A stretch of 64,000 nucleotides of DNA, taken from the IMG/VR virus record IMGVR_UViG_3300022907_000007, positions 1 to 64,000 of that record; one strand, written 5' to 3'. Both the position numbers and the translations under genes were made by a program. Of this stretch, positions 26,762-63,359 are shown one piece after another. The notes under the pieces were generated by a model. It ran no database searches. It had not been told where the DNA came from and worked only from the letters and a program-made list of their open reading frames with translations. The first letter of the stretch is position 1. Every line of letters starts with the position of its first letter. Source of the stretch: a virus.

Positions 26762-27797
26762 AGTACAAGCAGGCGATACTCTAGGTAAGATCGCACAGAA
26801 TCAAGGCGCAACTCTGGAACAGATCCTAGCATTGAACCCAGAGATTACAAACCCTAACATGATCCGTGCAGGTCAAGACATTCTCCTACCTGATACACCA
26901 GAGGATGAAGTTGTTTCCTTGGAATCAGAGTTTGATGCTCCTGCACCTGTAGAGCCACGTAACCTTGCTGAGGTTGTTCCTCCTGTGGAAGAAGAGTCTA
27001 GCATGGTAGACAGTATGTTTGGCGCAATAGGAGACATAGGAGCAGGATTAGTGAATATGTTAATCCCTTCTGCGCGTGCTGATGTATCTGAAGTTCCTGA
27101 AGAGAATGTTATTAAGGTTGGTGAGCCTCCTCCTGTAGAAGCTGTAGCAGACATCGCTGCATCTAAGAACCCTGCAAGTGTAGCCATGAAGTATCTTGGT
27201 ATGTCAGAAGATGACAAGGAAGGAGCAGAAGCAATACGTGGATTCTTTGATAATGCTGTGGGTAACTGGCGTGCAGATATGACACCAGAACAGTTTGCAA
27301 AAGAAACTCCGTGGTGTGCGGCATTTGTTACACAGGTACTACGTGACTCAGGTGTCAACCCTCAAGAAGAACTAGGGCAAGACAGCTTTAATCAAATACG
27401 TGCCTCGTCCTATGCCAAAGCAGGCGTAGGGGTTTCTCCTGAGTTAGCTAAGCCCGGTGACATAATGGTTAAATTCCATGACGAAGCTACGCGAAAGAAA
27501 TATAATACTGGACCTGCTCATGCGGGTATTGTTGTTAAAGTTGAAGGCGACACAGTATGGTACGTTGGTGGTAACACAGGCGATAAAGTTGAAGTATCTT
27601 CATATAGTTTGAAGGATAATGATATTCGGTTGCGTCGAGTTCGTGGTGCTTCAGATATTCCTCCAGAAAGTTTACCTTCAATTACTGAGCTACGTATTGG
27701 TAAAGCAGGTCGGAAGATTGCAGATGAGTTATCTAGTTTCTTTTCTGCAAGTGCCGCTTCTCCACAAGATCCAAATGTAAATATCAATGGAGCTTAA
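26751..27797 (+). CDS. LysM plus cysteine-peptidase wall hydrolase
   Basis: 348 residues, GTG start with GGAG 7 bases before. LysM (residues 2-48: YKVQAGDTLGKIA...LNP...IRAGQDILLP) binds peptidoglycan. After a Pro/Glu-rich linker comes a papain-like domain with ETPWCAAFV (C189) and GPAHAGIVV (H257), as in CHAP/TIGR02594-type amidases. Could be a second lysin or a virion-borne entry enzyme. Overlaps both neighbouring genes by 11 bp. Confidence 0.75.
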   Translation: MAYKVQAGDTLGKIAQNQGATLEQILALNPEITNPNMIRAGQDILLPDTPEDEVVSLESEFDAPAPVEPRNLAEVVPPVEEESSMVDSMFGAIGDIGAGLVNMLIPSARADVSEVPEENVIKVGEPPPVEAVADIAASKNPASVAMKYLGMSEDDKEGAEAIRGFFDNAVGNWRADMTPEQFAKETPWCAAFVTQVLRDSGVNPQEELGQDSFNQIRASSYAKAGVGVSPELAKPGDIMVKFHDEATRKKYNTGPAHAGIVVKVEGDTVWYVGGNTGDKVEVSSYSLKDNDIRLRRVRGASDIPPESLPSITELRIGKAGRKIADELSSFFSASAASPQDPNVNINGA

Positions 27798-29040
27798 TGT
27801 TGAGTTGCTTCCTTGGCAACAGGAAGTCTTTAACGATCCAACACGATTCAAGATTGTAGCGGCAGGGCGGCGTACTGGTAAGTCTCGTCTAGCCGCGTGG
27901 CAGTTGATTATCTATGGACTGCAAACAAACCGTGGTCATGTGTTTTATGTTGCTCCGACTCAGGGGCAGGCTCGTGACATTATGTGGTCTACTCTGCTAG
28001 AGTTAGCACATCCTGTTATTAAAACATCCCACATTAACAACTTGCAAATCACTCTTATTAACGGTTGCACTATCTCACTGAAGGGTGCTGACAGGCCAGA
28101 GACGATGCGTGGTGTATCCCTAAAGTTCCTTGTTATGGACGAATATGCGGATATGAAGCCTAGTGTGTGGGAACAGATCCTACGTCCTGCGCTTGCTGAC
28201 CAGAAGGGTGAAGCCATGTTTATTGGTACACCGATGGGACGTAACCACTTCTATGAACTGTATCACTATGCAGAGTTAGGAGATGATGATAGCTACAAGG
28301 CGTGGCACTTTACATCATACGATAACCCATTGCTAGACCCTGAAGAGATTGACACAGCCAAGAAGTCAATGTCTAGCTATGCATTCCGTCAAGAGTTCCT
28401 TGCCTCGTTTGAAGCATCAGGCAGTGAAGTATTCAAAGAAAATTGGATACAGTTTGATGACGAAGAACCAGAACTTGGTGATTACTACATTGCAGTTGAC
28501 TTAGCAGGTTTCGCAGATGTGGAATCGGCTACCAAGTCTAAGAATAAAAAACTTGACCAAACAGCAATTGCAATTGTTAAAGCAAGTGAGAACGGATGGT
28601 GGGTAGCGGATATTGTACATGGACGATGGGATATCAAAAAGACCGCCAAGAAAATATTCGATGCTGTAGAACATTATCAACCAGTTGCGGTTGGTATCGA
28701 AAAAGGGGCATTGAAGAATGCGGTACTGCCTTATCTTACAGACGTGATGAAGTCCAAACAAAGATTCTTCAGAGTGGAAGAGTTGACACACGGCAACAAG
28801 AAAAAAACTGATCGTGTTGTGTGGGCTTTGCAAGGACGTTTTGAACACGGACAGATAACATTAAACAAAGGCGACTGGACTGCTAACTTTCTTGATGAGT
28901 TGTTTCAGTTTCCCAATGCCCTAGTGCATGATGACTTAGTAGATGCTCTGGCATACATTGACCAGTTAGCAAAAGTGTCGTACTTCTACGATTATGAAGA
29001 AGACGACTTTGAAATTTTAGACCCTGTAGCAGGATATTAA
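27787..29040 (+). CDS. Terminase large subunit
   Basis: 417 residues. ATPase: Walker A AAGRRTGKS (25-33), Walker B FLVMDEYADM, coupling region IGTPMGRNHFYELYH. RNase H-like nuclease: YIAVDLAGFAD, GIEKG and HDDLVDALAY acidic residues. Motor and nuclease that package concatemeric DNA into the prohead. Shorter than T7 gp19 (586); the compact type is common in marine podophages. Confidence 0.95.
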   Translation: MELNVELLPWQQEVFNDPTRFKIVAAGRRTGKSRLAAWQLIIYGLQTNRGHVFYVAPTQGQARDIMWSTLLELAHPVIKTSHINNLQITLINGCTISLKGADRPETMRGVSLKFLVMDEYADMKPSVWEQILRPALADQKGEAMFIGTPMGRNHFYELYHYAELGDDDSYKAWHFTSYDNPLLDPEEIDTAKKSMSSYAFRQEFLASFEASGSEVFKENWIQFDDEEPELGDYYIAVDLAGFADVESATKSKNKKLDQTAIAIVKASENGWWVADIVHGRWDIKKTAKKIFDAVEHYQPVAVGIEKGALKNAVLPYLTDVMKSKQRFFRVEELTHGNKKKTDRVVWALQGRFEHGQITLNKGDWTANFLDELFQFPNALVHDDLVDALAYIDQLAKVSYFYDYEEDDFEILDPVAGY

Positions 29041-29041
29041 C

Positions 29042-31009
29042 ATGGACTATGATCATAACCACGAAGACCCCACATCATTAGAAGGTTGGGTTATACACAA
29101 GTGCAACCAATGGCGTGACCACTTTGAGTCAAACTATCAAGAAAAGTTTGATGAGTATTATCGTCTATGGCGTGGCATCTGGGCTGAAGAAGATTCAATG
29201 CGTGCATCAGAGCGTTCACGTCTTATCTCTCCTGCATTACAACAAGCTGTTGAGTCTGCTGTTGCTGAAGTAGAAGAAGCAACCTTTGGGCGTGGTAAAT
29301 GGTTTGACATCAAGGATGACTTTGCTGATGAGCAACCACAAGACATCCAAGTCTTACGTACTCAACTTGATGAGGATATGACTTTTGCTAAAGCTCGTAA
29401 GGCAATTGCAGAATGTTTAATTAACTCTGCTGTCTTTGGTACAGGAATTGGTGAAATCATTTTGGATGAAGTCAATGAGCTACGTCCTGCAACTCAACCA
29501 ATCATGGACGGTGAGATGACAGCCGTAGGTGTGACAGAACAACCTCGTACTCTTGTTAAGCTACGTCCGGTTATGCCTCAGAACTTTTTGATTGATCCAG
29601 TTGCTACAAGTATTGAAGAAGCATTGGGTGTAGCAATTGATGAGTTTGTACCTTTACATCAAATTGAGATTGCTCAAGAAGCAGGCATCTATCGTGACGT
29701 TGACGTTGCTGTAGCGGCTCCTGATACAGACATTGAGCCTGATCAAGATCTAACAATTTACATGGATGATAAGGTTCGTCTAACAAAGTATTATGGTCTT
29801 GTTCCTCGTGAGTTATTTGAAGAAGCTCTGTATGATCCTGAAGGCGAAGACAAACCTACTGACGAAGAACTAGAAGAATACAGCGGATACATCGAAGCAA
29901 TTGTTGTTATTGCTAATGGTGGTACTCTTCTTAAGATTGAAGCAAACCCATACATGATGCAGGATCGTCCTGTTATTGCTTTCCCTTGGGATGTAGTACC
30001 TAGTCGTTTCTGGGGGCGTGGTATTTGTGAGAAAGGCTACAACGCACAAAAAGCCCTTGACACCGAACTACGCGCACGTATTGATGCCTTGGCATTGACT
30101 GTACATCCAATGATGGCTGTAGACGCTTCTAGGCTCCCTCGTGGTGCTAAGCTAGAGGTACGTCCGGGCAAAGCAATCTTGACTAATGGTAACCCTTCAG
30201 AGATCCTTCAGCCATTTAATTTTGGTACGCTTGATCCTAATACCTTTAACCAAGCGGCTACCCTACAGCAGATGGTACAGCAAGCAACAGGTGCTATTGA
30301 TGCCGCAGGGATTCCTGGGTCAATCAATGGAGACTCAACAGCGGCAGGTATTTCAATGTCACTGGGTGCTATTATTAAGCGGCACAAGCGTACATTGATT
30401 AACTTCCAAGACTCGTTCTTACTACCGTTTGTAACTAAAGCGGCTCATCGGTATATGCAATTCAGTCCTGAGTTGTATCCAATCAAAGACTTTAAGTTTG
30501 TTGCAAGCAGTTCACTTGGGATTATTGCTCGTGAATATGAAGTCACTCAGTTAGTTCAGTTACTACAAACTATGAGTCCTGAGTCTCCTATGTATCCAAT
30601 GTTGATTGAATCAATTGTGGATAATATGAACTTAAGCAACCGTGAGCAAATCATTGAAGGATTGAAACAGGCTAACCAACCTGATCCTCAACAACAAGAA
30701 ATGCAACAGATGCAAGTACAAATGGAAATGGCTCAGAAGGAAGAGACCATTAAAAATATCCAAGCACAAACTGCTGAGATTCAATCGCGTGTACAACAGA
30801 ATGAGATTGAGTCGCAATTGCTTCCATTGGATGCAGAGACACGTCGTATTGCGGTACAGCTTAAGGCAGGCGGTAGTGATGACGTAGATAAAGAGTTTGA
30901 GCGTAGAGCTAAACTTGCAGAGCTTGTACTCAAAGAACGTGAGATTGCAAGTAAAGAAGACATAGTTGAACAACAAATGAGGAAATCTAATGGTAGTTAC
31001 CAAGCGTGA
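29042..31009 (+). CDS. Portal protein (phage A)
   Basis: 655 residues, 1 bp after the terminase stop. Pattern typical of podophage portals: N-terminal ESNYQEKFDEYYRLWRGIW and RSRLISPALQQAVESAVAEVEE, central FPWDVVPSRFWGRGICE, C-terminal long Gln/Glu coiled coil (barrel). Dodecameric ring at the capsid vertex for DNA passage. Order terminase-portal-scaffold-coat supports it. Not close to portal of phage B. Confidence 0.85.
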   Translation: MDYDHNHEDPTSLEGWVIHKCNQWRDHFESNYQEKFDEYYRLWRGIWAEEDSMRASERSRLISPALQQAVESAVAEVEEATFGRGKWFDIKDDFADEQPQDIQVLRTQLDEDMTFAKARKAIAECLINSAVFGTGIGEIILDEVNELRPATQPIMDGEMTAVGVTEQPRTLVKLRPVMPQNFLIDPVATSIEEALGVAIDEFVPLHQIEIAQEAGIYRDVDVAVAAPDTDIEPDQDLTIYMDDKVRLTKYYGLVPRELFEEALYDPEGEDKPTDEELEEYSGYIEAIVVIANGGTLLKIEANPYMMQDRPVIAFPWDVVPSRFWGRGICEKGYNAQKALDTELRARIDALALTVHPMMAVDASRLPRGAKLEVRPGKAILTNGNPSEILQPFNFGTLDPNTFNQAATLQQMVQQATGAIDAAGIPGSINGDSTAAGISMSLGAIIKRHKRTLINFQDSFLLPFVTKAAHRYMQFSPELYPIKDFKFVASSSLGIIAREYEVTQLVQLLQTMSPESPMYPMLIESIVDNMNLSNREQIIEGLKQANQPDPQQQEMQQMQVQMEMAQKEETIKNIQAQTAEIQSRVQQNEIESQLLPLDAETRRIAVQLKAGGSDDVDKEFERRAKLAELVLKEREIASKEDIVEQQMRKSNGSYQA

Positions 31010-31145
31010 GTTCCAAGAAATCATTGATCAAATGAATGGTATCTTGACAAAACTTGACAGCCGTATCAAAGACTTAGAAGATACTAAGACTCCTCGTAAT
31101 ACTAAGCCTGCAAAAAGTGTGCCAAAAGACTTGACAAATGAATAA
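30990..31145 (+). CDS. 51-residue coiled-coil mini-protein
   Basis: Starts inside the portal 3' end with AGGAAA upstream: MVVTKREFQEIIDQMNGILT, then heptads (LTKLDSRIKDLED) and a basic tail. Overlaps the -35 of the next promoter. Short gene usually missed. Probably expressed with the portal; function unknown. Confidence 0.55.
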   Translation: MVVTKREFQEIIDQMNGILTKLDSRIKDLEDTKTPRNTKPAKSVPKDLTNE

Positions 31146-31159
31146 AAGTATGGTATAAT
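31131..31159 (+). promoter_or_regulatory. Sigma70-type promoter for capsid genes
   Basis: TTGACA (31131-31136), 17-bp spacer, TATAAT (31154-31159), TGG extension. 27 bp before the 77-residue gene; gives extra transcription of scaffold and coat. Confidence 0.9.
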
Positions 31160-31186
31160 ATTTGCTTATAAATTAGGAGAAACTCT

Positions 31187-31420
31187 TTGAGTCCTGAAGA
31201 ACAAAAGTATTACGAAACTTATTTTGATCTGTTCATGACAGATGGTTGGAAACAATTCATCGAAGAGATCAACGAAATTCTTGATAGACATCGTATAGAA
31301 GATATTAAGAATGAAACACATTTAGCGTTTGTCAAAGGTGAACGCGATGCACTGTTCAGAGTGAGACGCTTTGAGACAGGTATCAAAACAGCTTATGACG
31401 TATTGCAGGGGCCGAAATAA
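31187..31420 (+). CDS. Small protein between portal and scaffold
   Basis: 77 residues with a TTG start preceded by AGGAGA. SPEEQKYYETYFDLFMTDGWKQ and FVKGERDALFRV are typical of a small gene found between portal and scaffold in T7-like marine phages. Function unknown. Confidence 0.65.
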   Translation: MSPEEQKYYETYFDLFMTDGWKQFIEEINEILDRHRIEDIKNETHLAFVKGERDALFRVRRFETGIKTAYDVLQGPK

Positions 31421-31632
31421 TGCTTAGGCGATACGATTATAAATGCACCGTATGTAACCATACAGAGGAAGACTGGGCTGACTCGTCAGACTGTGACTTC
31501 TCAACCTGTAAGGAATGCGGTGAAACATCAGTACGGATAATCTCTCCTGTCCGAACACATTTCGTTGGTCACGGTTGGCCGGATAAAGACGATAGGTGGG
31601 CTAAGGATCATGAGAGAGCCGCACGTAAATAA
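31420..31632 (+). CDS. Zinc-ribbon protein (FmdB-like)
   Basis: 70 residues. YDYKCTVCNHTEE and CKECGETS form C-x2-C...C-x2-C. N-terminal pattern is that of FmdB-type zinc ribbons. Overlaps the previous stop (TAATG). Role in phage unknown. Confidence 0.65.
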   Translation: MLRRYDYKCTVCNHTEEDWADSSDCDFSTCKECGETSVRIISPVRTHFVGHGWPDKDDRWAKDHERAARK

Positions 31633-31666
31633 CTTTCCATAATGCTACGGCACGGAGTTTAACAAT

Positions 31667-32485
31667 ATGGCACGTTTTATAGATGAGAGTCCCGAGTATC
31701 AACCAGAAGACGGGGAAGCACTCGCTAACTTAGAAGATGAAGAGACGCAGATTCCGGAAGAGGAACAACCTGCAGAACCTGAAGAGATTCAAGAAGCACA
31801 AGAAGAAAGCATTCCTGAGAAATATCAGGGTAAGGATATCAAAGATGTTGTCCGAATGCATCAAGAGGCTGAGAAACTTTTAGGTAAACAATCATCAGAA
31901 GTTGGTGAGTTACGTCAGATAGTTGATAATTTCGTAAAGACGCAACTTGAAGCCAATAGCCCACAAAAAGAAGAAGACGAAGAAGACGACATTGATTTCT
32001 TTGATGATCCAAAGAAAGCAGTAGAGCGAGCAATTGCGAAGCATCCTAAAATTAGGGAAGCAGAAGAAGTTACTCGCGCCATGAAGCAACAGGAGATCCT
32101 AAACAAACTCCAACGTAGCCATCCCGATTTCAATGAAATCATTCAGGATAGTAGGTTTGGAGAATGGGTAGCGGCTTCTAAGGTACGGACTGAATTGTAC
32201 CAACGTGCAGACCAACGGTTTGACTTTGACAGTGCTGATGAACTTTTAAATACTTGGAAGGAACGTCAGAACTTAGTTAGTGAAACTGTTGAGATGCAAG
32301 AGGCTGACCGTAAGCGTCAGTTAAAATCTGCTTCTACTGGTACTGCTAAAGGGTCAGGCGAAAAGCCAAGTCGTAAAGTCTATCGTCGTGCTGATATTAT
32401 TAAACTTATGCAAACAGACCCTAACAGATATCAAGAACTGGCGGCTGAGATTCGCCAAGCATATGCTGAGGGTCGAGTTAAATAG
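31667..32485 (+). CDS. Scaffolding protein (phage A)
   Basis: 272 residues, Glu/Gln-rich helix, acidic first half, basic C-terminus (KPSRKVYRRADIIKLM), which usually binds the coat. Directly before the coat gene. Contains the KYQGKDIKDVVRMHQEAE pattern seen in T7-like scaffolds. Directs coat assembly and leaves before DNA packaging. Confidence 0.8.
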   Translation: MARFIDESPEYQPEDGEALANLEDEETQIPEEEQPAEPEEIQEAQEESIPEKYQGKDIKDVVRMHQEAEKLLGKQSSEVGELRQIVDNFVKTQLEANSPQKEEDEEDDIDFFDDPKKAVERAIAKHPKIREAEEVTRAMKQQEILNKLQRSHPDFNEIIQDSRFGEWVAASKVRTELYQRADQRFDFDSADELLNTWKERQNLVSETVEMQEADRKRQLKSASTGTAKGSGEKPSRKVYRRADIIKLMQTDPNRYQELAAEIRQAYAEGRVK

Positions 32486-32504
32486 CTATTAGGAGATATT
32501 TACA

Positions 32505-33440
32505 ATGGCAAACTTAACCCCCGCAAGTAACAATACCGTTACTTTAGCAAACGCGGCTACGTTCATTCCAGAACTGTGGTCAGATGAAATCATTGCGGCG
32601 TACAAGCAAAACCTCGTTCTTGCTAACCTCGTAAACAAAATGCCTATGACTGGTAAGAAAGGTGATACTCTTCACATTCCTAAGCCTGTCCGTGGCGCGG
32701 CCAATGCTAAGACAGCGGCTGACACTGTAACAATTCAACAGACTGCTAACACAGAAGTTATAATCACTATCGACAAGCACTACGAATACTCACGCTTGAT
32801 CGAGGACATCACAGAAGTACAGGCGTTGGATTCACTCCGCCGTTTCTACACTGACGATGCAGGTTACGCTCTTGCTAAGCAAGTCGATGACGATCTGTTC
32901 GCAGAGTTGTTGAACGTGTCAAACGATGCAGGTACTGCTGATGGTGCTGATGCTACTCAGTCTCACTACCAGATCAACGGTGCATCTGATGTCTTGATTG
33001 ACTACGATGACTCTACTGCTCTTGAAGCGTTCTCTGATGCGGCTTTCCGCAACATGATTCAACGGTTGGATGATGCTGATGTTCCTATGGAAGGTCGTGT
33101 ATTGATTATCCCTCCTGTGATTCGCAACACTATCATGGGCATTGAGCGTTACGTGTCTTCTGACTTTGTCAACGGTCGTGGTGTTAACAACGGTCAGATT
33201 GGTCAGCTTTACGGTGTTGACGTTTACGTTACATCTAACGCTCCAACTGTCACTGGTACTACCACTTCTGGTCGTGTCATGACTATGATGCACAAGGACG
33301 CTTTCGTTCTTGCAGAGCAAATGGCTGTACGTTCACAGACTCAGTACAAGCAAGAGTTCCTTGCGAACTTGTTCACTGCTGACACTCTGTACGGCACCAA
33401 GGTTCTCCGTCAAGAGAACGTACTCTCTGTTGTAGTATAA
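32505..33440 (+). CDS. Major capsid protein (phage A)
   Basis: 311 residues; AGGAGA before the ATG. N-terminal ATFIPELWSDEIIAAYKQNLV, KGDTLHIPKP and DKHYEYSRLIEDI, and P-domain-like QVDDDLFAEL fit HK97-fold coats of T7-like marine podophages. Smooth codon use and a terminator right after suggest high expression. Different family pattern from the coat of phage B. Confidence 0.85.
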   Translation: MANLTPASNNTVTLANAATFIPELWSDEIIAAYKQNLVLANLVNKMPMTGKKGDTLHIPKPVRGAANAKTAADTVTIQQTANTEVIITIDKHYEYSRLIEDITEVQALDSLRRFYTDDAGYALAKQVDDDLFAELLNVSNDAGTADGADATQSHYQINGASDVLIDYDDSTALEAFSDAAFRNMIQRLDDADVPMEGRVLIIPPVIRNTIMGIERYVSSDFVNGRGVNNGQIGQLYGVDVYVTSNAPTVTGTTTSGRVMTMMHKDAFVLAEQMAVRSQTQYKQEFLANLFTADTLYGTKVLRQENVLSVVV

Positions 33441-49491: not shown

Positions 49492-51600
49492 ATGACTCAA
49501 ACACCTCAACCGATGAAGCCTGATCAAATCGAGTCGATCGCTAGCGAAGCCGTTAGTGACGCACTGGACTTCATCGAGTCAGAGATTTCAGAAGACCGCA
49601 TCAAGGCACAGCGTTATTTCGATGGCGAGATCGATTTAGGCCACGAGGAAGGCCGTAGCCGTGTTGTGGCTACAAAGGTGCGTGACACTATCCGCTCAGT
49701 CAAACCATCGCTGATGCGTATCTTCTTGTCGAATGAGAAGTATGTTGAGTACATTCCGCGCTCACCACAAGACGTAGGGCAGGCAGAAACTGCTACCCGG
49801 TACGTCCACTCTACATTTACTGAGAACAACGGCTACCGCATCCTTCAGAATGCATTCCACGATGCCTTGTTGAAGAAGACAGGCGTTGTGAAAGTTTACT
49901 GGGATCAGTACACAAAGGGTAAAACCTACGAGCTTACTGGGCTGACCGAGCAAGAGTACCTGATGGTCACTCAGGAAGACGATATCGAGATCATCGAGCA
50001 ATCGATGGAAACCTCGGTCTCTATGGATGAAATGGGCATGGAGATCGAAACCCCGATCTATGACGTAAAGCTCATGCGTAGGAAAGAAGGCGGGAAGCTC
50101 TGTGTTGAGCCAGTGCCGCCTGAAGAGTTCTTTGTCGATCGTGGCGCTAAATCAGTTGAAGACTTTTATGTTATCGGTCACCGCACAGAGATGCGCGTAG
50201 GTGATCTAGTCGCAATGGGCTATGACTTTGAAGAAGTCTCTGAACTGACAGGTATCTCTGAGCATGACACTCTGGCCGAGGCGGAAGACTTTGAGCGCCG
50301 TGGATACGAGCAGTCAGATGAGGAAGATATCAAAGACCCATCGATGCGTAAGGTAGCCGTCACAGAAGCATATATGCGGATGGACGTAGACGGCACTGGC
50401 GTCCCAATGATGTACAAAATCACGTTGGGCGGCGGCCAGTATAAGTTGCTCGATTATGAGCCATGCGATGACGTACCGTTCGCAATTTTTGAGGTAGACC
50501 CGGAACCACATGCATTCTTTGGCCGGTCAATGGCTGACCTGATCCTTGACGATCAGGATGCGGCAACATCGATTCTGCGTGGAGTCCTCGACAATATCGC
50601 AATGACCAACAACCCGCGCCTGTCGATGGTAGAAGGTCAGGTCAACATCGATGATCTGCTCAACAACGAAATCGGCGGTATCGTCCGCGTTAAAGATCCA
50701 AGCGCCATACAGCAACTTGGAGTGCCATTCGCCGCAGGTCAGACGCTAGCGGCTCTGGAATACTACAATCAGGTTGTCGAGCAAAAGACTGGCGTTTCTC
50801 GTGCATCGAACGGGCTAGACCCAGACGCACTGCAGAATACCACTGCAACTGCTGTGGCGATGACAGCGCAGGCCCAGGCAGGGCAGATCGAGGTAATCGC
50901 TCGGAACCTTGCAGAAGGCGGCATGACGCAGTTATTCAAGCTCATGCTCAAATTGCTTGCTGAGAACTCTCCAGACGAGACGCTGATGAAGATAGCAGGT
51001 GACCAGTTCGCGCCGATCGATCCGCGCTCGTGGAATGTCGAGATGGGCGTATCAGTCAACGTAGGCTTAGGAACTGGCAAGGAAGATCAGCAGGCCGCTG
51101 TTCTACAGGCCACACTGCAAACACAGATGAACATATGGCAGACCTATGGCCCGATGAACGGCTTGGTGTCTATGGTCACAATTCGCAACACACTTGCAGA
51201 TATCCTCGCACTAGGCGGTGTTCGTAACTCTGACAGGTACTACCTGCCAATGAACCCACAGCAGGAGCAGATGCTGATTCAACAGCAACAGCAGATGCAG
51301 GCGCAACAGCAAGCAGGTCAGCAAGATCAGCAGGCTCAGGCACTGGTGCAGGCAGAAACAATCCGGGCGCAGGCCAAGGCTCAGTCTGACATGGCGAAGA
51401 TCCAGTTGGACGCACAGAAGGCTCTGGCATCAGATGACAGAGAGCGCGACAAGATGGATCAGGATCTATTGATCAAGGCGGCAGAGGTGATCGGAAAGTA
51501 CGGCACAGCGGTAGACGTAGAGCGCATCAAGGCAATGCAAGCAGAGCCACGATTTGCGGATACATCACCACAGCAGGCTGTGACGCAGGCTAGATATTAA
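49492..51600 (+). CDS. Portal protein (phage B)
   Basis: 702 residues. EDRIKAQRYFDGEIDLGHEE, VRDTIRSVKPSLMRIFLSNE and the central VEPVPPEEFFVDRGAKSVED are characteristic of the large podophage portal family (HMO-2011/N4-like). C-terminal 150 residues are Gln-rich barrel/coiled coil. Upstream of scaffold and coat. No terminase of phage B is in the window. Confidence 0.85.
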   Translation: MTQTPQPMKPDQIESIASEAVSDALDFIESEISEDRIKAQRYFDGEIDLGHEEGRSRVVATKVRDTIRSVKPSLMRIFLSNEKYVEYIPRSPQDVGQAETATRYVHSTFTENNGYRILQNAFHDALLKKTGVVKVYWDQYTKGKTYELTGLTEQEYLMVTQEDDIEIIEQSMETSVSMDEMGMEIETPIYDVKLMRRKEGGKLCVEPVPPEEFFVDRGAKSVEDFYVIGHRTEMRVGDLVAMGYDFEEVSELTGISEHDTLAEAEDFERRGYEQSDEEDIKDPSMRKVAVTEAYMRMDVDGTGVPMMYKITLGGGQYKLLDYEPCDDVPFAIFEVDPEPHAFFGRSMADLILDDQDAATSILRGVLDNIAMTNNPRLSMVEGQVNIDDLLNNEIGGIVRVKDPSAIQQLGVPFAAGQTLAALEYYNQVVEQKTGVSRASNGLDPDALQNTTATAVAMTAQAQAGQIEVIARNLAEGGMTQLFKLMLKLLAENSPDETLMKIAGDQFAPIDPRSWNVEMGVSVNVGLGTGKEDQQAAVLQATLQTQMNIWQTYGPMNGLVSMVTIRNTLADILALGGVRNSDRYYLPMNPQQEQMLIQQQQQMQAQQQAGQQDQQAQALVQAETIRAQAKAQSDMAKIQLDAQKALASDDRERDKMDQDLLIKAAEVIGKYGTAVDVERIKAMQAEPRFADTSPQQAVTQARY

Positions 51601-51833
51601 TGTCAAACATTAAGGATAAGGCTACCAAGATCCGCATGCTGATGAAGGATGAAACCTTCAAAGAAGTGATGCAAGGCGTGAGAACGGCGCAGGTTGGTGT
51701 ATTTTTATCCAGTAGTGCTACAATCGAGTCTGTTGAAGAAGCGCATCAAATTGTTGTTGCGCTTGATAAAATTGAGGCGTACATGCAAACCGTATTAGAT
51801 GACGAGGCAGTGTACGACAAGAAACATTCATAA
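51600..51833 (+). CDS. Small protein between portal and scaffold (phage B)
   Basis: 77 residues, helical (KIRMLMKDETFKEVMQGVRT). Starts on the stop of the portal gene. Same slot as 31187-31420 in phage A, without clear similarity. Unknown. Confidence 0.5.
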   Translation: MSNIKDKATKIRMLMKDETFKEVMQGVRTAQVGVFLSSSATIESVEEAHQIVVALDKIEAYMQTVLDDEAVYDKKHS

Positions 51834-51851
51834 CACTGGAGACACTGTACC

Positions 51852-52859
51852 GTGGAAACGACAGAATCTGGTAATACTGCACTGAGTTTAGACTCAGCGG
51901 CAGATTTGCTAATACAGGATCAGCAACCTGAGCAAGCTGAAGAGGTAGCAGAAGTTGAGGAGGAGCAACCCGTAGAGGACTCTTTCGATGAAGCGGATGA
52001 CTCGGAGGATGCTGAGGTTGAGGAAGTCGATGCCGATGAAGTCGAGGAGATCGATGACGAGGCAGAAGACGAGGAGTACGAAGACACAGAGGAAGACGAT
52101 GAGGAATCTGACCCTGCGCTAGAAAGCTATACCGTAAAGGTAGACGGCCAAGAAAAGCAGGTAACTCTAGAAGAACTCAAGCGTGGTTACTCAGGTCAGC
52201 AGTACGTCCAAAAGGGCATGCAGGAAGCGGCTGAGGCTCGGAAACAAGCTGAAGGCGTCTATGAAGCCCTGATGCAAGAAAGACAAAATCTTGCACAATT
52301 GGTACAGATGGCACAGGCAGGTGATCTTGCCCCGCCAAAAGAACCTAGCAAAGAGTTGTTTGACGCAGATCCGATTGGCTATATGGAAGCCAAGATGAAC
52401 TACGATGAACAGATGAAGGCATACGGCGAGAAGCAACAGGCATTGCATCAGCAACTGCAAGCGCAGTCTGAGGCAGAGCAAAGAGCAAGATCGGTGTATG
52501 CACAACAGGAAGCTCAAAAGCTAGTAGAACTCGTCCCTGAGTTACGAGACGCCGGTAAGGCATCGCAGTTCAAGGATAAGGTAGTGAAAGCGGCGACAGA
52601 GGTCTACGGCTATACGCCAGACGAGATCGCTAACATCCAAAGTCACAGAGACTTTATGGTTCTCAGGGACGCGATGCTCTACCGCGAGATGATGGCAGGC
52701 AAGGAAAATGTTCAGAAGAAGGCCAAAAAGGCCAGACCGATGATCAAGCCCGGAGCCAAAAAAGTCAGTACCAATAATGACGTAGTCCGCAAAAAGCGGG
52801 CAACACTGAAGAAGACAGGTAGCATCAACGATGCCTTGTCACTGATTTTAGATAACTAA
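51852..52859 (+). CDS. Scaffolding protein (phage B)
   Basis: 335 residues, GTG start with GGAG upstream. Strongly acidic first 90 residues (runs of Glu/Asp), YTVKVDGQEKQVTLEELKRG, Gln-rich coiled coil, basic C-terminus (KKARPMIKPGAKK). Typical scaffold build; directly before the coat. Confidence 0.8.
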   Translation: METTESGNTALSLDSAADLLIQDQQPEQAEEVAEVEEEQPVEDSFDEADDSEDAEVEEVDADEVEEIDDEAEDEEYEDTEEDDEESDPALESYTVKVDGQEKQVTLEELKRGYSGQQYVQKGMQEAAEARKQAEGVYEALMQERQNLAQLVQMAQAGDLAPPKEPSKELFDADPIGYMEAKMNYDEQMKAYGEKQQALHQQLQAQSEAEQRARSVYAQQEAQKLVELVPELRDAGKASQFKDKVVKAATEVYGYTPDEIANIQSHRDFMVLRDAMLYREMMAGKENVQKKAKKARPMIKPGAKKVSTNNDVVRKKRATLKKTGSINDALSLILDN

Positions 52860-52887
52860 GCTAAGTTCTTGATTTAGGAGAAGAATC

Positions 52888-53862
52888 ATGGCGCAACCAT
52901 CGAACACGTTCGACTCATATGACGCGGTCGGCATACGGGAAGACCTAGAAGACATCATCTATGATGTGTCTCCAGAGGAAACTCCATTCTATTCAGCCTG
53001 CGCGAAAGTAAAGGCAACTAACACGTTCCACGAGTGGCAGACAGACGCATTGCGTTCATCTGCGGCAAACGCTCACGTTGAAGGTGATGACACAACTGCT
53101 GAAGCTCGCACAGCGACTTCACGTTTGGGCAACTACACTCAGATCTTCAAGAACGCAGTATCTGTTCCTGACACTGACGATGGCCTGAACAAAGCAGGAC
53201 GCGCAAAGGAAATTGCCTATGCCACGCTCCGCATGGCTAAAGAGCAAAAGCTCGACATTGAAAAGGCATTGTTCGACAACAACGCTCGTGTAGCAGGTAG
53301 CTCTTCAGTTGCCCGTGAATTGGCGGGCGCTCCTGCGTGGATGATCACTAACACTGACTTTGTTACTGGCGGCGCGACTGACGGTGCAGATCCTACTGGT
53401 GACGGTACTGACGCTCGTACAGATGCTGTTGGCTCGTTAACAGCGTTCAGCCAAACTAAGTTTGACGGTGTTATGCAGTCAATCTGGGAGCAGGGTGGTA
53501 ACCCAGACGTTGTTTACTTGTCAGCGTTCCAGATGAACAAAGCTCTGGGCTTCACTGGCATGAACAATCAGCGTTCAACTATCGGCGCTTCTGTTGGTGG
53601 TACTAACGCGGTAATCAACGCAGTAGATGTCTACGTTACTCCTTGGGGTACTGTAGAGTTCATTCCTACTCGTGAAAACCGTTCGCGTGACGTATTCATC
53701 ATGCAGAACGACATGTGGGCTGTTGGCGTATTGCGTCCAACTAAGAACACACAGTTGGCTAAGACTGGCGACTCAACTCGCCGTCAGGTCATCACTGAAC
53801 TCACTCTTGTTTGTAAGAACGAGAAGGCTTCAGGGATCATCGCTGACAACACAACTTCTTAA
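52888..53862 (+). CDS. Major capsid protein (phage B), SU10/DUF5309-like
   Basis: 324 residues. NTFDSYDAVGIREDLEDIIY, VSPEETPFYSACAKVKATN and FHEWQTDALR are the N-terminal signature of the SU10-like coat family (DUF5309); NAVDVYVTPWGTVEFIPTRE and the C-terminal ELTLVCKNEKASGII agree. AGGAG before the ATG; terminator follows. Confidence 0.9.
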   Translation: MAQPSNTFDSYDAVGIREDLEDIIYDVSPEETPFYSACAKVKATNTFHEWQTDALRSSAANAHVEGDDTTAEARTATSRLGNYTQIFKNAVSVPDTDDGLNKAGRAKEIAYATLRMAKEQKLDIEKALFDNNARVAGSSSVARELAGAPAWMITNTDFVTGGATDGADPTGDGTDARTDAVGSLTAFSQTKFDGVMQSIWEQGGNPDVVYLSAFQMNKALGFTGMNNQRSTIGASVGGTNAVINAVDVYVTPWGTVEFIPTRENRSRDVFIMQNDMWAVGVLRPTKNTQLAKTGDSTRRQVITELTLVCKNEKASGIIADNTTS

Positions 53863-57056: not shown

Positions 57057-57084
57057 TTGCACAGATAAACATAATATGTTGTAA
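57057..57084 (+). promoter_or_regulatory. Possible promoter with TTGCAC -35
   Basis: TTGCAC at 57057-57062 and a weak -10 (TTGTAA) 16 bp on. The GTTGCA core matches the repeated element upstream of later genes. 32 bp before the recombination operon. Confidence 0.3.
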
Positions 57085-57115
57085 TTCTCCTGTTGTTTAC
57101 CAATGGGAGAATGCA

Positions 57116-57748
57116 ATGAAAAATCAAACAACACTAATGGCCCGTGTCTGGGCTGACCTATCTGCGATCAACGTCAACGATCACATCCAAAAGAAAGGCA
57201 ACTTGTCCTATCTGTCTTGGGCTTGGGCTTGGTCAACTCTTATGACTAAATACCCTGAGTCGTACTACGTCTTCCAAGACACCCGTACTGAAAACGGTAC
57301 GGTAATGGTTGAGTGCGTCCTGACTATTCATGAAGGCGAAGAGGTTGCCACGCGCACAATGTGGTTGCCGGTCATGGATCACAAGAACAAGGCGATCGTT
57401 GACCCTGACACTCGTGCGATATCTGACACACGCATGCGCTGTCTTGTGAAGTGCCTCGCTATGTTTGGTCTAGGTTTCTACATCTATGCAGGTGAAGACA
57501 TCCCGCAGGCTGAGAAAGAAGCCCTAGATCAGCCGATCGACAAGGCTCAGGCTCAACGCCTCAATGAGATGTTGGACTACTCAGGAACCGACATACAGAA
57601 GTTCCTAGCGCACTATCGGATCAGTTCTGTGTCCGAGCTACCACAATCGCATCATGAGCAGGCGTATAACGCGCTGTCGCAGAAGATCTCGCAAATGGAA
57701 GCCCAGACTGCGCAAGCTGATAACGAGTTGTCAGATGTCGATCTGTAA
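57116..57748 (+). CDS. Single-strand annealing protein (DUF1071/Sak-like)
   Basis: 210 residues. KGNLSYLSWAWAWSTLMTKY followed by DTRMRCLVKCLAMFGLGFYI is the pattern of DUF1071/ERF-type Rad52-like annealases. They pair complementary single strands made by the adjacent YqaJ-type exonuclease. GGGAGA before the ATG. Confidence 0.8.
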   Translation: MKNQTTLMARVWADLSAINVNDHIQKKGNLSYLSWAWAWSTLMTKYPESYYVFQDTRTENGTVMVECVLTIHEGEEVATRTMWLPVMDHKNKAIVDPDTRAISDTRMRCLVKCLAMFGLGFYIYAGEDIPQAEKEALDQPIDKAQAQRLNEMLDYSGTDIQKFLAHYRISSVSELPQSHHEQAYNALSQKISQMEAQTAQADNELSDVDL

Positions 57749-59658: not shown

Positions 59659-60217
59659 ACAGTGCCGGAAGAAGGTTCCTGCTGAGTCGGCATTTGTCAC
59701 TCAGTTGCGAGCCTTCTGTTCTTTTGAGTGCCTAACACAATTCACCAAGTCAGAGAAAGGGAGAAAAACGATAGCAAAATCCTCCCTTGCAGAAATGCGT
59801 GAGCGTAAACAAAAACTCAAGACCAAATCTGACTACCTCAAGGAAGCCCAGGCGGCGTTCAACGCATACGTCAGGGCGCGTGACCATGACAAGGCATGCA
59901 TCTCGTGTGGGCAGTGGACAGACGATCGATACGGCGGAGGTTGGGACGCAGGCCACTACAGGTCTGTTGGCTCGGCCCCACACCTCAGATTCAACTTGCA
60001 TGGGTGTCACAAACAATGCGTGAAGTGTAACCGCTATCTCAGCGGCAACGTGGCCGAGTACCGCAAGGGTCTGATCGAGCGCATCGGCATCGAAAAGGTT
60101 GAGGCACTGGAGGCCATGAATGCTGTCGAAAACATAGGGAAAAAAGAAGAGTATTTAATCCGCATCAAAAAAATATTTACCAAGAAGAAACAAAAAGTGT
60201 TGCAATCAAGGTTGTAA
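59633..60217 (+). CDS. ninG: NinG recombination protein
   Basis: 194 residues from the ATG at 59633. N-terminal zinc site (CKQC, CSFEC), basic coiled helix, then CISCGQW...WDAGHYRSVGSAPHLRFN and CHKQCVKCNRYLSGN, the HNH-like zinc nuclease motif of NinG/Rap. Holliday-junction or flap endonuclease in recombination. Overlaps ninB by 26 bp. Confidence 0.9.
   Translation: MKSANRRCKQCRKKVPAESAFVTQLRAFCSFECLTQFTKSEKGRKTIAKSSLAEMRERKQKLKTKSDYLKEAQAAFNAYVRARDHDKACISCGQWTDDRYGGGWDAGHYRSVGSAPHLRFNLHGCHKQCVKCNRYLSGNVAEYRKGLIERIGIEKVEALEAMNAVENIGKKEEYLIRIKKIFTKKKQKVLQSRL
60191..60207 (+). promoter_or_regulatory. Repeated CAAAAAGTGTTGCAATC element, copy 1
   Basis: 17 bp identical to 60519-60535; partly matched at 62062-62075. 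Each lies 25-30 bp before a hairpin leader. TTGCAA looks like a -35, but here no good -10 is seen at 16-17 bp. Overlaps the 3' end of ninG. Confidence 0.55.
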
Positions 60218-60231
60218 AGTGCGAATATACA

Positions 60232-60270
60232 CATGTCGGGAAATTAAATTGAAATGGAGAAAACGACATG
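60232..60270 (+). promoter_or_regulatory. Start-codon leader hairpin, copy 1
   Basis: CATGTCG (60232-60238) pairs with CGACATG (60264-60270), 7 bp, and the second arm contains the ATG start. The loop carries the conserved AAATTAAATTGAAAT and the GGAG ribosome site. Would hide the start codon when folded. Confidence 0.7.
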
Positions 60271-60498
60271 ATCACAGCAGGCATCAAGCACAACTTCCGC
60301 AAAGGCCAGTACATCTGGAGCCTCAACTGCCTTGAGGACATGGTATTTGAGATCGTCAAGATCACACCACACCGTATCGTTGCCAAGCACGTTGGATGGA
60401 TGGATGGCCGCAAGGTGAACTTCCACAAGGCCAACTACGCGGTCAGCAACTTCCGCCCATCAAATGTTTTTGAATTAGATTTTCCGGTCAAGCGGTAA
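60268..60498 (+). CDS. Small protein behind leader hairpin (76 aa)
   Basis: Reads MITAGIKHNFRKGQYIWSLN, basic and beta-rich (VFEIVKITPHRIVAKHVGW). No family. Its start codon lies in a leader hairpin and its stop in the loop of another. Confidence 0.55.
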   Translation: MITAGIKHNFRKGQYIWSLNCLEDMVFEIVKITPHRIVAKHVGWMDGRKVNFHKANYAVSNFRPSNVFELDFPVKR

Positions 60499-60511
60499 AA
60501 AATATCGCTTG
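60489..60511 (+). promoter_or_regulatory. Stop-codon hairpin, 11-nt loop
   Basis: CAAGCG (60489-60494) pairs with CGCTTG (60506-60511); the loop GTAAAAAATAT contains the UAA stop. Related in layout to the four GUAA hairpins downstream. Confidence 0.55.
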
Positions 60512-60518
60512 AATGAAA

Positions 60519-60555
60519 CAAAAAGTGTTGCAATCTATCTTCACTGTGGTATTAT
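60519..60555 (+). promoter_or_regulatory. Promoter with CAAAAAGTGTTGCAATC element, copy 2
   Basis: TTGCAA (60528-60533), 16-bp spacer, TATTAT (60550-60555), within the 17-bp repeat. Transcription would start just at the leader hairpin of the metallopeptidase gene. Confidence 0.6.
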
Positions 60556-60560
60556 TCCTG

Positions 60561-60601
60561 TGTCGAATAAATTTAATTGAAATCTAAGGAGGTTCGACAT
60601 G
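60561..60601 (+). promoter_or_regulatory. Start-codon leader hairpin, copy 2
   Basis: TGTCGAA (60561-60567) pairs with TTCGACA (60593-60599), 7 bp; ATG is 60599-60601. The inner AA/TT pairs replace GG of the other copies with matching change on the other arm (covariation). Loop includes TTTAATTGAAAT and AAGGAGG. Confidence 0.75.
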
Positions 60602-61129
60602 ATCACAAACAAATGCCCTAACAACGTCAGCGTTAAGTTCCACAATCAGGTTGTGGAGATTGTCACTGAGATGGCTAACGCTCTGATGAATGAGTGGGGC
60701 CATGACTTCCCACTGCTGATCAAGACCATCCACAACTGTGGCCGCTCTACTGGCGGTGGTTCGAACAATCATGTGTGCATCTCTGATGCGTATGACGTTC
60801 AGCCACGCAAGCGTGTTTACGAGCTTGTCGAGTACAAGAGCATCGCCAACAAAAAAGTCATTGGCACAATCAAGGGTGACCAAGAGACTGTCCTCAAAGC
60901 ACTGTGCGCTCATGAGGTTGCTCACTGGTGGCATCAGCAGTTACTCCGCGAGGAGTACGGCAATACTTGGTGGCTTGAGCCTGAAGCTCGCAAGGGCTAC
61001 AACTCACCACACGGTATGCGGTGGCAGATGATCTACGCTGATCTGCGTACCATGTTTGTCAACCCAGACACCAAAGGCACAAACCCTTGGTGGCCTGATG
61101 ATGTTTATTCAGATGAGGAGGCGGCGTAA
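60599..61129 (+). CDS. SprT-like zinc metallopeptidase
   Basis: 176 residues. ALCAHEVAHWWHQQ gives HExxH (H105, E106, H109); SPHGMRWQ (H138) supplies the third ligand as in SprT/Spartan proteins (HG..W). N-terminal helix precedes. In eukaryotes Spartan removes proteins crosslinked to DNA; in phages the role is unknown. Next to recombination genes, which fits DNA-protein repair (inference). Confidence 0.7.
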   Translation: MITNKCPNNVSVKFHNQVVEIVTEMANALMNEWGHDFPLLIKTIHNCGRSTGGGSNNHVCISDAYDVQPRKRVYELVEYKSIANKKVIGTIKGDQETVLKALCAHEVAHWWHQQLLREEYGNTWWLEPEARKGYNSPHGMRWQMIYADLRTMFVNPDTKGTNPWWPDDVYSDEEAA

Positions 61130-61137
61130 GCCGCTCC
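61117..61137 (+). promoter_or_regulatory. Stop-codon GUAA tetraloop hairpin, copy 1
   Basis: GGA-g-GCGGC / GUAA / GCCGC-UCC: 8 base pairs with one bulged G; the GNRA loop contains the UAA stop of the metallopeptidase (61127-61129). The next ribosome site (GGAGG) follows after 5 bases. Confidence 0.75.
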
Positions 61138-61152
61138 ACTGGAGGTATCGAC

Positions 61153-61437
61153 ATGAAACTTACCAACCAACAAATTATCCTGACCGCGCAGGCTATTGCG
61201 CGTGTCGGCTACCCTGACGAGAGCGACTTGGACGCAATGGTTGAAGTCCTTCAGAAGCTCGATCAGGAGATTGACTTCAGCCTGCCGCTTGGATACCACG
61301 CAGACAATGTGGTGGGCGAGGCTGAGAACGATCTTGAGGTACAGCGGTGTGCGATCTACGCCGAGCGTGAAGAACAGGAGCGCAGGATCGCAGAGTACGA
61401 GTACGAGCTAGAGCCGGATGGCGAGGATGATGACTAA
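61153..61437 (+). CDS. Acidic protein (94 aa)
   Basis: Helical N-terminus (QQIILTAQAIARVGYPDESD), strongly acidic C-terminus (EYELEPDGEDDD), GGAGG before the ATG. Resembles DNA mimics only in charge. Function unknown. Its stop codon is at the foot of a terminator. Confidence 0.55.
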   Translation: MKLTNQQIILTAQAIARVGYPDESDLDAMVEVLQKLDQEIDFSLPLGYHADNVVGEAENDLEVQRCAIYAEREEQERRIAEYEYELEPDGEDDD

Positions 61438-61457
61438 GGGGCTACGGCCCCTTTTTT
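61436..61457 (+). terminator. Terminator with UACG loop
   Basis: AAGGGGC-TACG-GCCCCTT and a T6 run; first two bases are part of the UAA stop. Same hairpin as at 53877. Confidence 0.9.
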
Positions 61458-61533
61458 AATGCCTGCAAAAATAATTAAAATAAATGCAACGTAAACTGTT
61501 GCTTTACGGCACACCTATTTGAGAAACTAACTG

Positions 61534-61570
61534 TGTCGGGAAATTAAATTGAAATCAGGAGATCGACATG
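61534..61570 (+). promoter_or_regulatory. Start-codon leader hairpin, copy 3
   Basis: TGTCG (61534-61538) pairs with CGACA (61564-61568), extended by G-U pairs; ATG is 61568-61570. Loop GGAAATTAAATTGAAATCAGGAG. The stretch 61458-61533 before it is AT-rich with GTTGC but no clear -10. Confidence 0.7.
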
Positions 61571-61780
61571 ACAGTTTCAAACAAGCTCTTAGTTCTTTCA
61601 GCAGTTAAGCCTTTTCCAGAGTCTTACGATTTAGTTCTTGTGCGTGACAACGAGGTATTTGATGTCACAAGTCAGGAGTCTAAAAGCGTAGAACGTGCAG
61701 TGTCTGAGGCTCGCATTTACATGCCTCATTACACTTGGGAAGCGTGGGTCAAGCAAGACAACGATTGGGTGTTGGCGTAA
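61568..61780 (+). CDS. Small protein behind leader hairpin (70 aa)
   Basis: Alpha-beta, SYDLVLVRDNEVFDVTSQES and YTWEAWVKQDNDWVLA. No known family. Start in a leader hairpin and stop in a GUAA loop, as for 62141-62494. Confidence 0.55.
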   Translation: MTVSNKLLVLSAVKPFPESYDLVLVRDNEVFDVTSQESKSVERAVSEARIYMPHYTWEAWVKQDNDWVLA

Positions 61781-61789
61781 GCCACACCC
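61767..61789 (+). promoter_or_regulatory. Stop-codon GUAA tetraloop hairpin, copy 2
   Basis: GGGUGU-u-GGC / GUAA / GCC-ACACCC: 9 pairs with one bulged U; UAA stop 61778-61780 in the loop. Stem sequence is different from copy 1 but structure is kept. Confidence 0.75.
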
Positions 61790-61805
61790 TTACAGGGAGA
61801 ACGAA

Positions 61806-62006
61806 ATGATCCAGTCAATGGCAACAGCATCGGATTTCAACAACTGGACGGCTCACGCAAAGAGCCTTCCTGAGTCATCAATCCGCCACATCATGGGCGA
61901 CTGCCAGAAGGCAGAAGAAGCCATGCGCGGATGGAACCCAGAGCGCGAGAACTTCTACCGCGATCAGTACCTGACCTACAGGGACGAGTTGCTCAGACGA
62001 GCATGA
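61806..62006 (+). CDS. Small protein (66 aa)
   Basis: ATG at 61806 has AGGGAG 8 bases upstream. Helical: SDFNNWTAHAKSLPESSIRH and RDQYLTYRDELLRRA. Function unknown. Second gene of its short operon, followed by a terminator. Confidence 0.55.
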   Translation: MIQSMATASDFNNWTAHAKSLPESSIRHIMGDCQKAEEAMRGWNPERENFYRDQYLTYRDELLRRA

Positions 62007-62007
62007 G

Positions 62008-62033
62008 AAAGGAGCCGAAAGGCTCTTTTTTTT
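62008..62033 (+). terminator. Terminator with GAAA loop
   Basis: GAGCC-GAAA-GGCTC plus A/T pairs and a T8 run, directly after the stop at 62006. Confidence 0.9.
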
Positions 62034-62061
62034 GGCCAAATAAATATTTTATTGTCAGCAA

Positions 62062-62098
62062 CAAAAAGTGTTGCATTATTATTCCATTGTAGTATCCT
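62062..62098 (+). promoter_or_regulatory. Promoter with CAAAAAGTGTTGCA element, copy 3
   Basis: Repeat 62062-62075; TTGCAT (62071-62076), 16-bp spacer, TATCCT (62093-62098). Same spacing as copy 2 and same distance to the leader hairpin. Confidence 0.6.
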
Positions 62099-62103
62099 AT
62101 CTG

Positions 62104-62143
62104 TGTCGGGTAATTAAATTGAAATTGAGGAGAACACGACATG
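62104..62143 (+). promoter_or_regulatory. Start-codon leader hairpin, copy 4
   Basis: TGTCG (62104-62108) pairs with CGACA (62137-62141); ATG 62141-62143. Loop GGGTAATTAAATTGAAAT, then GAGGAG. Confidence 0.7.
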
Positions 62144-62494
62144 AACTTCAAAGTAACTGCAACACCAAACGGCAAGGGCAAGGTCAAGATCACTGTGACT
62201 AATCCTGATGGCACTTCTTGGGTTTACGCTGAGAAGGCTAAAGAAGGCCGTTTCACTCACTACGCTGTAGTGACTCAAGAAATCACTCAAGCGGCGATCG
62301 ATCGTCACATCTCTTTTGAAAAGCGCCACTGGAATGGCTGTTCTGTTGACCGCCCATATCTGGAAGGTCTGATCGGTGAGTCTTGCTCGTTCATCCAGAT
62401 GGCTACTAAAGAAAGCACCGCAAAGAAAGCAGGGCCATGTTTGCCATACGCTGAAGCTAAATCAGTCGAAGTATTTGAAGTGGAGGCGGCGTAA
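62141..62494 (+). CDS. Small protein behind leader hairpin (117 aa)
   Basis: Beta-rich start (NFKVTATPNGKGKVKITVTN), then helical segments with two Cys. No family recognised. Codon use looks like that of well expressed genes. Carries both RNA devices (leader hairpin and GUAA stop hairpin). Confidence 0.55.
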   Translation: MNFKVTATPNGKGKVKITVTNPDGTSWVYAEKAKEGRFTHYAVVTQEITQAAIDRHISFEKRHWNGCSVDRPYLEGLIGESCSFIQMATKESTAKKAGPCLPYAEAKSVEVFEVEAA

Positions 62495-62702: not shown

Positions 62703-62915
62703 ATGAGAGCAGTAAAAATTACATCTGAAACCGCCGACACAATCGCTGACTTTATGTCCGAGTATCAGTCAACCCTTCACAACAAGCTCGTTGCTGAAGG
62801 TTTCGATCTAGAGGAGGTTTCCGAGATCATGAGCGCCTACATGTCCATCAACGGCAATCTAATCAATATGCTTGGCGAAGAGTCAGGCACAGGTTTCTCA
62901 ATCGAGATCAAATAA
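62703..62915 (+). CDS. Small protein (70 aa)
   Basis: ATG at 62703 after GGAG. MRAVKITSETADTIADFMSE and EVSEIMSAYMSINGNLINML: helical, acidic. Function unknown. Its stop is not in a hairpin; the noncoding locus begins 40 bp later. Confidence 0.55.
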   Translation: MRAVKITSETADTIADFMSEYQSTLHNKLVAEGFDLEEVSEIMSAYMSINGNLINMLGEESGTGFSIEIK

Positions 62916-62954
62916 GGTTTGACAGGAAATAATTTAAAGGAGTAAGGTTTAAGA

Positions 62955-63035
62955 CAGTGCCGGACGGGGTGTGCGAAGCCCCTAGCGAACCGGACTGAGA
63001 AACAGGAATAAACCCGTGACCGCACTCCGGCACTG
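62955..63035 (+). ncRNA. Structured RNA candidate, 81 nt
   Basis: CAGTGCCGGA (62955-62964) pairs perfectly with TCCGGCACTG (63026-63035). Stacked inside, GTGCG (62971-62975) pairs with CGCAC (63021-63025), and GGGG (62966-62969) could pair with CCCC (62979-62982), which would make a pseudoknot. No open frame. TTGACA at 62919-62924 upstream may be part of a promoter. No known RNA family recognised. Confidence 0.55.
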
Positions 63036-63045
63036 GTTCCAATTG

Positions 63046-63069
63046 TGACCGAAACAGTATTCTCGGTCA
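63046..63069 (+). other. Hairpin between the two structured RNA parts
   Basis: TGACCGA (63046-63052) and TCGGTCA (63063-63069), 7-bp stem with 10-nt loop. Two smaller GTACG/CGTAC hairpins lie further on (63109-63139). Together they fill the gene-free stretch 62916-63359. Confidence 0.5.
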
Positions 63070-63172
63070 ACATTCCTAGAGTCTCATTCTGTATCGTTAG
63101 GGTTCATCCCGTACCGTTAAAGTACGCTCAGTGTCGTACAGCACCAGAAAGCACGATTGCAACCCAACCTTT

Positions 63173-63324
63173 GAGGACGGGACAAACAGCGTTAGAGGTG
63201 ATCCGCCTACGGGCAGGGACGGTTGAGCTACCGAGTCGAGATACCCACGACTAAAAGCACTGCTGATTACTGAGGTTGCATGGACGATAGCGTACCGGAT
63301 GGACAGGGATCACCCTACGTCCTC
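63173..63324 (+). ncRNA. Structured RNA candidate, 152 nt
   Basis: GAGGACG (63173-63179) pairs with CGTCCTC (63318-63324), and inside it GGTGATCC (63197-63204) with GGATCACC (63307-63314): two nested perfect long-range stems of 7 and 8 bp. A local hairpin AGTCG/CGACT (about 63234-63252) lies within. No open frame. Could be one RNA with the 81-nt element. Family unknown. Confidence 0.5.
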
Positions 63325-63359
63325 TAAATGACAACTATGACCAAAATTTGAGGTGACTC

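Follow-up and report, generated by a model that had tools for sequence, protein, structure and literature searches.

The stretch of viral DNA analysed here, referred to as the window (64,000 nucleotides, positions 1 to 64,000 of IMG/VR record IMGVR_UViG_3300022907_000007), raises the question of why four of its genes begin within a hairpin whose arms, TGTCG and CGACA, enclose the ribosome site and whose 3' arm contains the ATG. The first-pass annotation had taken this arrangement, before the genes at 60268, 60599, 61568 and 62141, for a repeated translation switch, possibly opened by temperature, a protein or ribosomes. The four hairpins are indeed there, far above chance, as read from the sequence, its predicted fold and a pattern scan:

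60234..60270, + strand: leader hairpin copy 1 (TGTCG 60234-60238, CGACA 60264-60268, ATG 60268-60270)
60561..60601, + strand: leader hairpin copy 2 (arms TGTCGAA and TTCGACA, ATG 60599-60601)
61534..61570, + strand: leader hairpin copy 3 (ATG 61568-61570)
62104..62143, + strand: leader hairpin copy 4 (ATG 62141-62143)

Within the window, the pattern TGTCGN{15,36}CGACATG retrieves the four hairpin sites, and copy 1 once more as a mirror match, where 0.20 +/- 0.47 are expected from shuffles (0/100 shuffles reached 5), and a fifth copy lies outside the window at 65731-65765 of the same 74,742-base record. Among 36 ribosome-site starts between 45 and 64 kb, only the four leaders have a 5-mer 22-42 nt upstream that is complementary to positions -4..+1. 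Copies 1, 3 and 4 share the loop block AATTAAATTGAAAT without change, copy 2 departs from it at one position, and in copy 1 a CA just 5' of TGTCG lengthens the pairing to CATGTCG/CGACATG. The stem of copy 2 had been described as having both arms changed together; its core arms are in fact unaltered, the difference being two added A-T pairs (TGTCGAA/TTCGACA) at inner positions that are unpaired in 27/34 cells across relatives. Considering that the core is invariant and that the 2-bp extension occurs in a single copy, we have ruled it out as evidence of covariation.

The proteins encoded behind the four leaders are short, and no family matches were found for them, the 176-aa protein included:

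60268..60498, + strand: 76-aa protein behind leader 1, function unknown
60599..61129, + strand: 176-aa protein behind leader 2, in which HEVAHWWHQ resembles, by eye, a zinc-protease motif
61568..61780, + strand: 70-aa protein behind leader 3
62141..62494, + strand: 117-aa protein behind leader 4

The orthologue of the 176-aa protein in two relatives (L004/L022) has its own TGTCG leader. Across the wider family of leaders, the 50 proteins encoded downstream fall into 35 clusters of unrelated small proteins, and since so many unrelated clusters follow the element, the sequences make a gene-specific feedback switch unlikely.

A sigma70-like promoter lies 5' of every copy, with a -35/-10 spacing of 16-18 bp, and TGTCG stands exactly 5 nt past the -10. 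The promoters, read from the sequence, are as follows:

60200..60228, + strand: copy 1 promoter (-35 TTGCAA 60200-60205, -10 GAATAT 60223-60228)
60528..60555, + strand: copy 2 promoter (TTGCAA 60528-60533, TATTAT 60550-60555)
61499..61528, + strand: copy 3 promoter, a weak match (TTGCTT 61499-61504, GAAACT 61523-61528)
62071..62098, + strand: copy 4 promoter (TTGCAT 62071-62076, TATCCT 62093-62098)

Terminator-like hairpins close some units (61436, 62012), and together with the promoters they indicate that each leader heads a small unit in which one to three genes encode short proteins. A dyad-like sequence, AACAAAAAGTGTTGC, overlaps the -35 of copy 1, and the full dyad GCAACAAAAAGTGTTGC (62058-62074) overlaps that of copy 4, with equivalents at 60189, 60517 and 61488; from its sequence and placement this dyad is likely to be an operator common to the window's own group. 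At L277:142 (- strand) a 10-bp inverted repeat, ATGGTGCTCT/AGAGCACCAT, has one arm between the -35 and the -10, while the other ends at the ATG.

Relatives in IMG/VR were collected by scans built to omit one or both arms from the pattern. With the operator alone as the pattern, all family members retrieved have both arms and differ in their loops; with the operator and the 3' arm, the 5' arm is found in every family member (five exceptions are non-homologous sequence); and with the operator and the 5' arm, 55 sequences have CGACATG and three do not. Two of the 55 are chance matches (L171, L226) and were removed, leaving 53 family members. Of the three without CGACATG, L112 and L125 apparently come from unrelated phages, and L274 is a true relative that keeps TGTCG but has CAACAGATATG in place of the CGAC arm. 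A looser scan, and one for promoter and loop elements only, brought into the family phages whose upstream sequences differ (L010/L196/L202; L179/L182/L211/L214/L250; L176/L243/L264/L281). The outcome is some 40 distinct hairpins from several groups of uncultured phages, in which the loop varies in sequence and in length (19-30 nt) and the 5-nt arms are essentially invariant. The suggestion of a repeated, conserved leader element is thus borne out, by four window copies, the copy at 65731 and the relatives, and the relatives keep both arms rather than the ribosome site alone, so that the outcome which the first-pass annotation had named as its refutation did not occur. Beyond these phages, we found no leader matching the element in cultured phages, the leader is absent from the Octadecabacter virus DB2 (a capsid relative), bacterial genome contigs gave only chance-like matches, and Rfam covariance models gave no match to the leader at gathering score or E<=1. 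The element has the look of a genuine, previously undescribed expression cassette of uncultured bacterial viruses.

The position of the leader relative to its promoter is equally constant. In 48/53 family members a -10 hexamer with A2/T6 lies 5 nt before TGTCG, and T6 is present in all unique upstream sequences. Given this near-constant 5-nt distance from the -10, we predict that the stem lies at the 5' end of the mRNA, although the transcription start is one that we infer from sequence: with a standard discriminator (+1 being the seventh base after the -10) transcription would begin at the G of TGTCG and only 4 bp would remain. An inverted repeat at the transcription start could also be read as DNA, TGTCG and CGACA being half-sites for a repressor, and another dyad, GCAACAAAAAGTGTTGC, does already overlap the -35. 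The half-sites are, however, 19-30 nt apart with many lengths in use, and this variable spacing argues against a rigid DNA dyad; in addition, the upstream operator varies by group whereas the arms do not. We consider a DNA operator very improbable. A leaderless upstream reading frame opening with (A/G)TG-TCG at the mRNA 5' end is harder still to credit. The base 5' of TGTCG is A or G in 39/48 cases, giving ATG or GTG, and in some members the frame stays open and matches that of the main start, but the family is mixed (10 in frame and open, 9 in frame with a stop, 15 out of frame with a stop, 7 out of frame and open), and TTG and CTG are also found.

Whether the two arms belong together was assessed from their co-occurrence and from their variation, and the two lines of evidence differ. 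CGAC precedes the ATG in 36/49 starts with an upstream TGTCG as against 7/595 ribosome-site starts without, and TGTCG is missing from the start of the sister promoter in the same phages, that of the recombination gene at 57116. The arms therefore occur together, and neither is explained by local context. In the search of 159 promoter plus ribosome-site units, 36 TGTCG/CGACA hairpins were found and one other complementary pair (L102). Compensating changes did not materialize: across relatives no core pair shows a both-side change, since the core never varies, and leaders with exchanged 3' halves pair no worse. Cells are paired in 86.0% of cases as against 86.8% after shuffling, and the flanks show no coupling (1534/2000 permutations pair at least as well). 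The two bases 5' of TGTCG are mostly TG or CA (34/38 and 28/38 are pairable with the G and U of AUG). Seemingly compensating arms in the distant leaders L023/L131, L043, L061, L070 and L081 (TGTGT/ACACA, ATGTTT/AAACAT) were rejected, L142, near-identical to L131, having no pairing and the systematic search of the 159 units having given only the one other pair; CGAATC/GATTCG in L278 was likewise rejected as a pair of variant arms, being a single case, the other CGAATC sites of which do not belong to leaders.

That the arms never covary would suit two independent motifs, TGTCG as an initial transcribed sequence and CGAC as a start-codon context, which spread together as a cassette and are complementary by coincidence. 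The fixed distance of TGTCG from the -10 and the retention of TGTCG without CGAC in L274 point the same way, and one chance complementarity of this kind would be expected at about the percent level. Against this, CGAC is near-absent at other starts of the same phages, the sister promoter manages without TGTCG, the arms have stayed constant while the sequence between them was replaced, and L055 retains CGACA although its ATG is displaced by 2 nt (TGTCG...CGACAAATG). Weighing these, we regard coincidental complementarity as unlikely.

The sister gene at 57116, of the single-strand-annealing (Sak/Erf-like) kind, has a leader hairpin of its own (57083-57118, + strand), with arms ATTCTCC/GGGAGAAT around TGTTGTTTACCAAT. 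It starts near the predicted transcription start, holds the Shine-Dalgarno itself, and covaries in relatives (95.7% of cells are paired and four pairs have changed on both sides; the score for covariation is 0.606, as against 0.309 shuffled and <=0.219 slid), so that it is a candidate translational operator by sequence comparison. That a leader in the same phages shows compensatory changes counts in favour of reading the TGTCG leaders as stems.

In the window copies, each 5-bp core is part of the predicted fold. For the leaders, core pairing is predicted at 0.82-0.85 and an unpaired Shine-Dalgarno at 0.63-0.70. The folding energies of the leaders are unexceptional against shuffles (z -1.6 to +0.8), and the bare hairpin is a weak stem of about -4 to -5 kcal/mol at 37 C. 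Since the start codon sits in the stem, some gating of initiation is possible on the folding model, and a dedicated gate could be envisaged in which the stem occludes the AUG until it is opened by ribosome loading or by an RNA-binding protein from phage or host, many small genes being switched on together. The A of the AUG is predicted to be paired at >=0.96 in all four window copies, several small gene units share the same leader, and the invariant arms could be a recognition site for a protein; yet the Shine-Dalgarno is free, the bare stem has little stability at 37 C, the loops, where proteins usually make contact, are not conserved, and no candidate regulator was identified. We are accordingly doubtful of such a gate. 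Opening by temperature can be given almost no credence: the predicted folding energy does weaken with warming, being about -15 kcal/mol at 5 C and -6 kcal/mol at 37 C, but the start-codon A remains paired at >=0.96 in silico from 5 to 42 C and the Shine-Dalgarno lies outside the stem, so the temperature-opened switch of the earlier proposal finds no support.

The nearest described repeats are the SAS and ESAS elements of Cluster K mycobacteriophages, short repeats by the starts of some small non-structural genes, some with an inverted repeat, whose function is unknown (PMC3203893). SAS is a 13-bp sequence, GGGATAGGAGCCC, just 5' of the starts, and ESAS a 17-bp imperfect inverted repeat with a 4-13 bp spacer, wholly upstream of SAS (PMC3203893). 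Like them, the leader is repeated before a subset of small genes (the record has five copies, and the proteins behind the family's leaders form 35 clusters). Unlike ESAS, its arms are 5 bp, lie 19-30 nt apart and enclose the ribosome site; unlike both, it is coupled to the -10 of a promoter and its 3' arm overlaps the ATG, and the sequences are unrelated, GGGATAGGAGCCC being absent from the aligned leaders. In mechanism the nearest parallel, by analogy, would be the 5'-terminal stem-loop: in E. coli, 5' stem-loops stabilize mRNA and impede RppH (reviewed in PMC3997798), and the ompA and papA leaders are described as 5'-terminal stem-loop stabilizers (Emory, Bouvet and Belasco 1992, as cited in PMC3997798). 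The leader resembles these in that a stem is predicted at its extreme 5' end with a ribosome site predicted to be single-stranded, and differs in that the ribosome site lies in the loop, the stem takes in part of the start codon, copies stand before many genes and the arm sequence is fixed. It shares with RNA thermometers and translational operators a start codon within the stem; unlike them, it has its Shine-Dalgarno outside the stem, no predicted melting, and no dependence on the gene.

Considering the predicted 5'-end position, the open ribosome site and the gene independence, all of which fit a 5' cap with display of the ribosome site, the explanation we favour, with about half of our confidence, is a constitutive, gene-independent cassette of promoter and leader, in which a 5'-terminal stem would cap the mRNA and the ribosome site would be shown in an A-rich loop. 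A host-type promoter would be joined to a short leader; UGUCG, the bases transcribed first, would pair with CGACA-UG, that is, with the bases before the start codon and its A. The resulting 5'-terminal stem, with the Shine-Dalgarno in a mostly open loop, most likely would cap the mRNA against 5'-end-dependent decay while keeping the ribosome site accessible; the ribosome would dock on the loop and melt the 5-7 bp stem to reach the AUG. Conservation, co-occurrence of the arms, their fixed place after the -10 and gene independence are seen in the sequences; that the arms pair in the cell, and that pairing affects stability or translation, is what we infer. On this modelling the cassette is most likely a 'strong, stable, small-gene' module and not a dedicated switch.

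The fixed arm sequence exceeds what a plain 5' cap needs, which leaves space for a binding factor or a promoter-proximal sequence role, and since the cap model alone does not explain this invariance, we hold our confidence at the level given. A bolder reading is that of a clamp with fixed sequence, which would hold the start codon to the 5' end of the mRNA and be recognized by a factor, of host or phage, dedicated to it. This would be a portable post-transcriptional control module, not described before, carried by unrelated genes and promoters in several phage groups; we think it rather unlikely. If real, the cassette is a compact gene-independent leader, reused over unrelated genes of uncultured phages, in which ~80 bp would combine a promoter with protection of the mRNA 5' end and the start of translation. 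It would offer a simple test case for phage control of the expression of many small accessory genes, and a marker for locating such genes and promoters in viral metagenomes.

Directly downstream of the fourth unit, between gene 62703-62915 and the ORF at 63360, lies a non-coding stretch of ~400 nt (62940-63345, + strand) that is conserved in ~20 related phage contigs from several leader groups (97% to ~70% identity). Of the 51 pairs in its RNAalifold consensus, 20 have changed on both sides; the fold z is -2.66, and it has no match in Rfam at E<=1. On this modelled fold it is possibly a new large structured phage RNA, perhaps more interesting than the leader hairpins.

Finally, the record contains two different terminase/portal/capsid sets (27787-33440 and 49492-53862; GC 0.44-0.46 vs 0.49), and a separate contig (L015) matches it from 55958 onward; two phages may have been joined in this IMG/VR record. 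Since the right-hand phage (49492-53862) has a capsid and a portal closest to those of Octadecabacter Antarctic DB virus 2 (72% and 48%), the sequence suggests a host among the Rhodobacterales.
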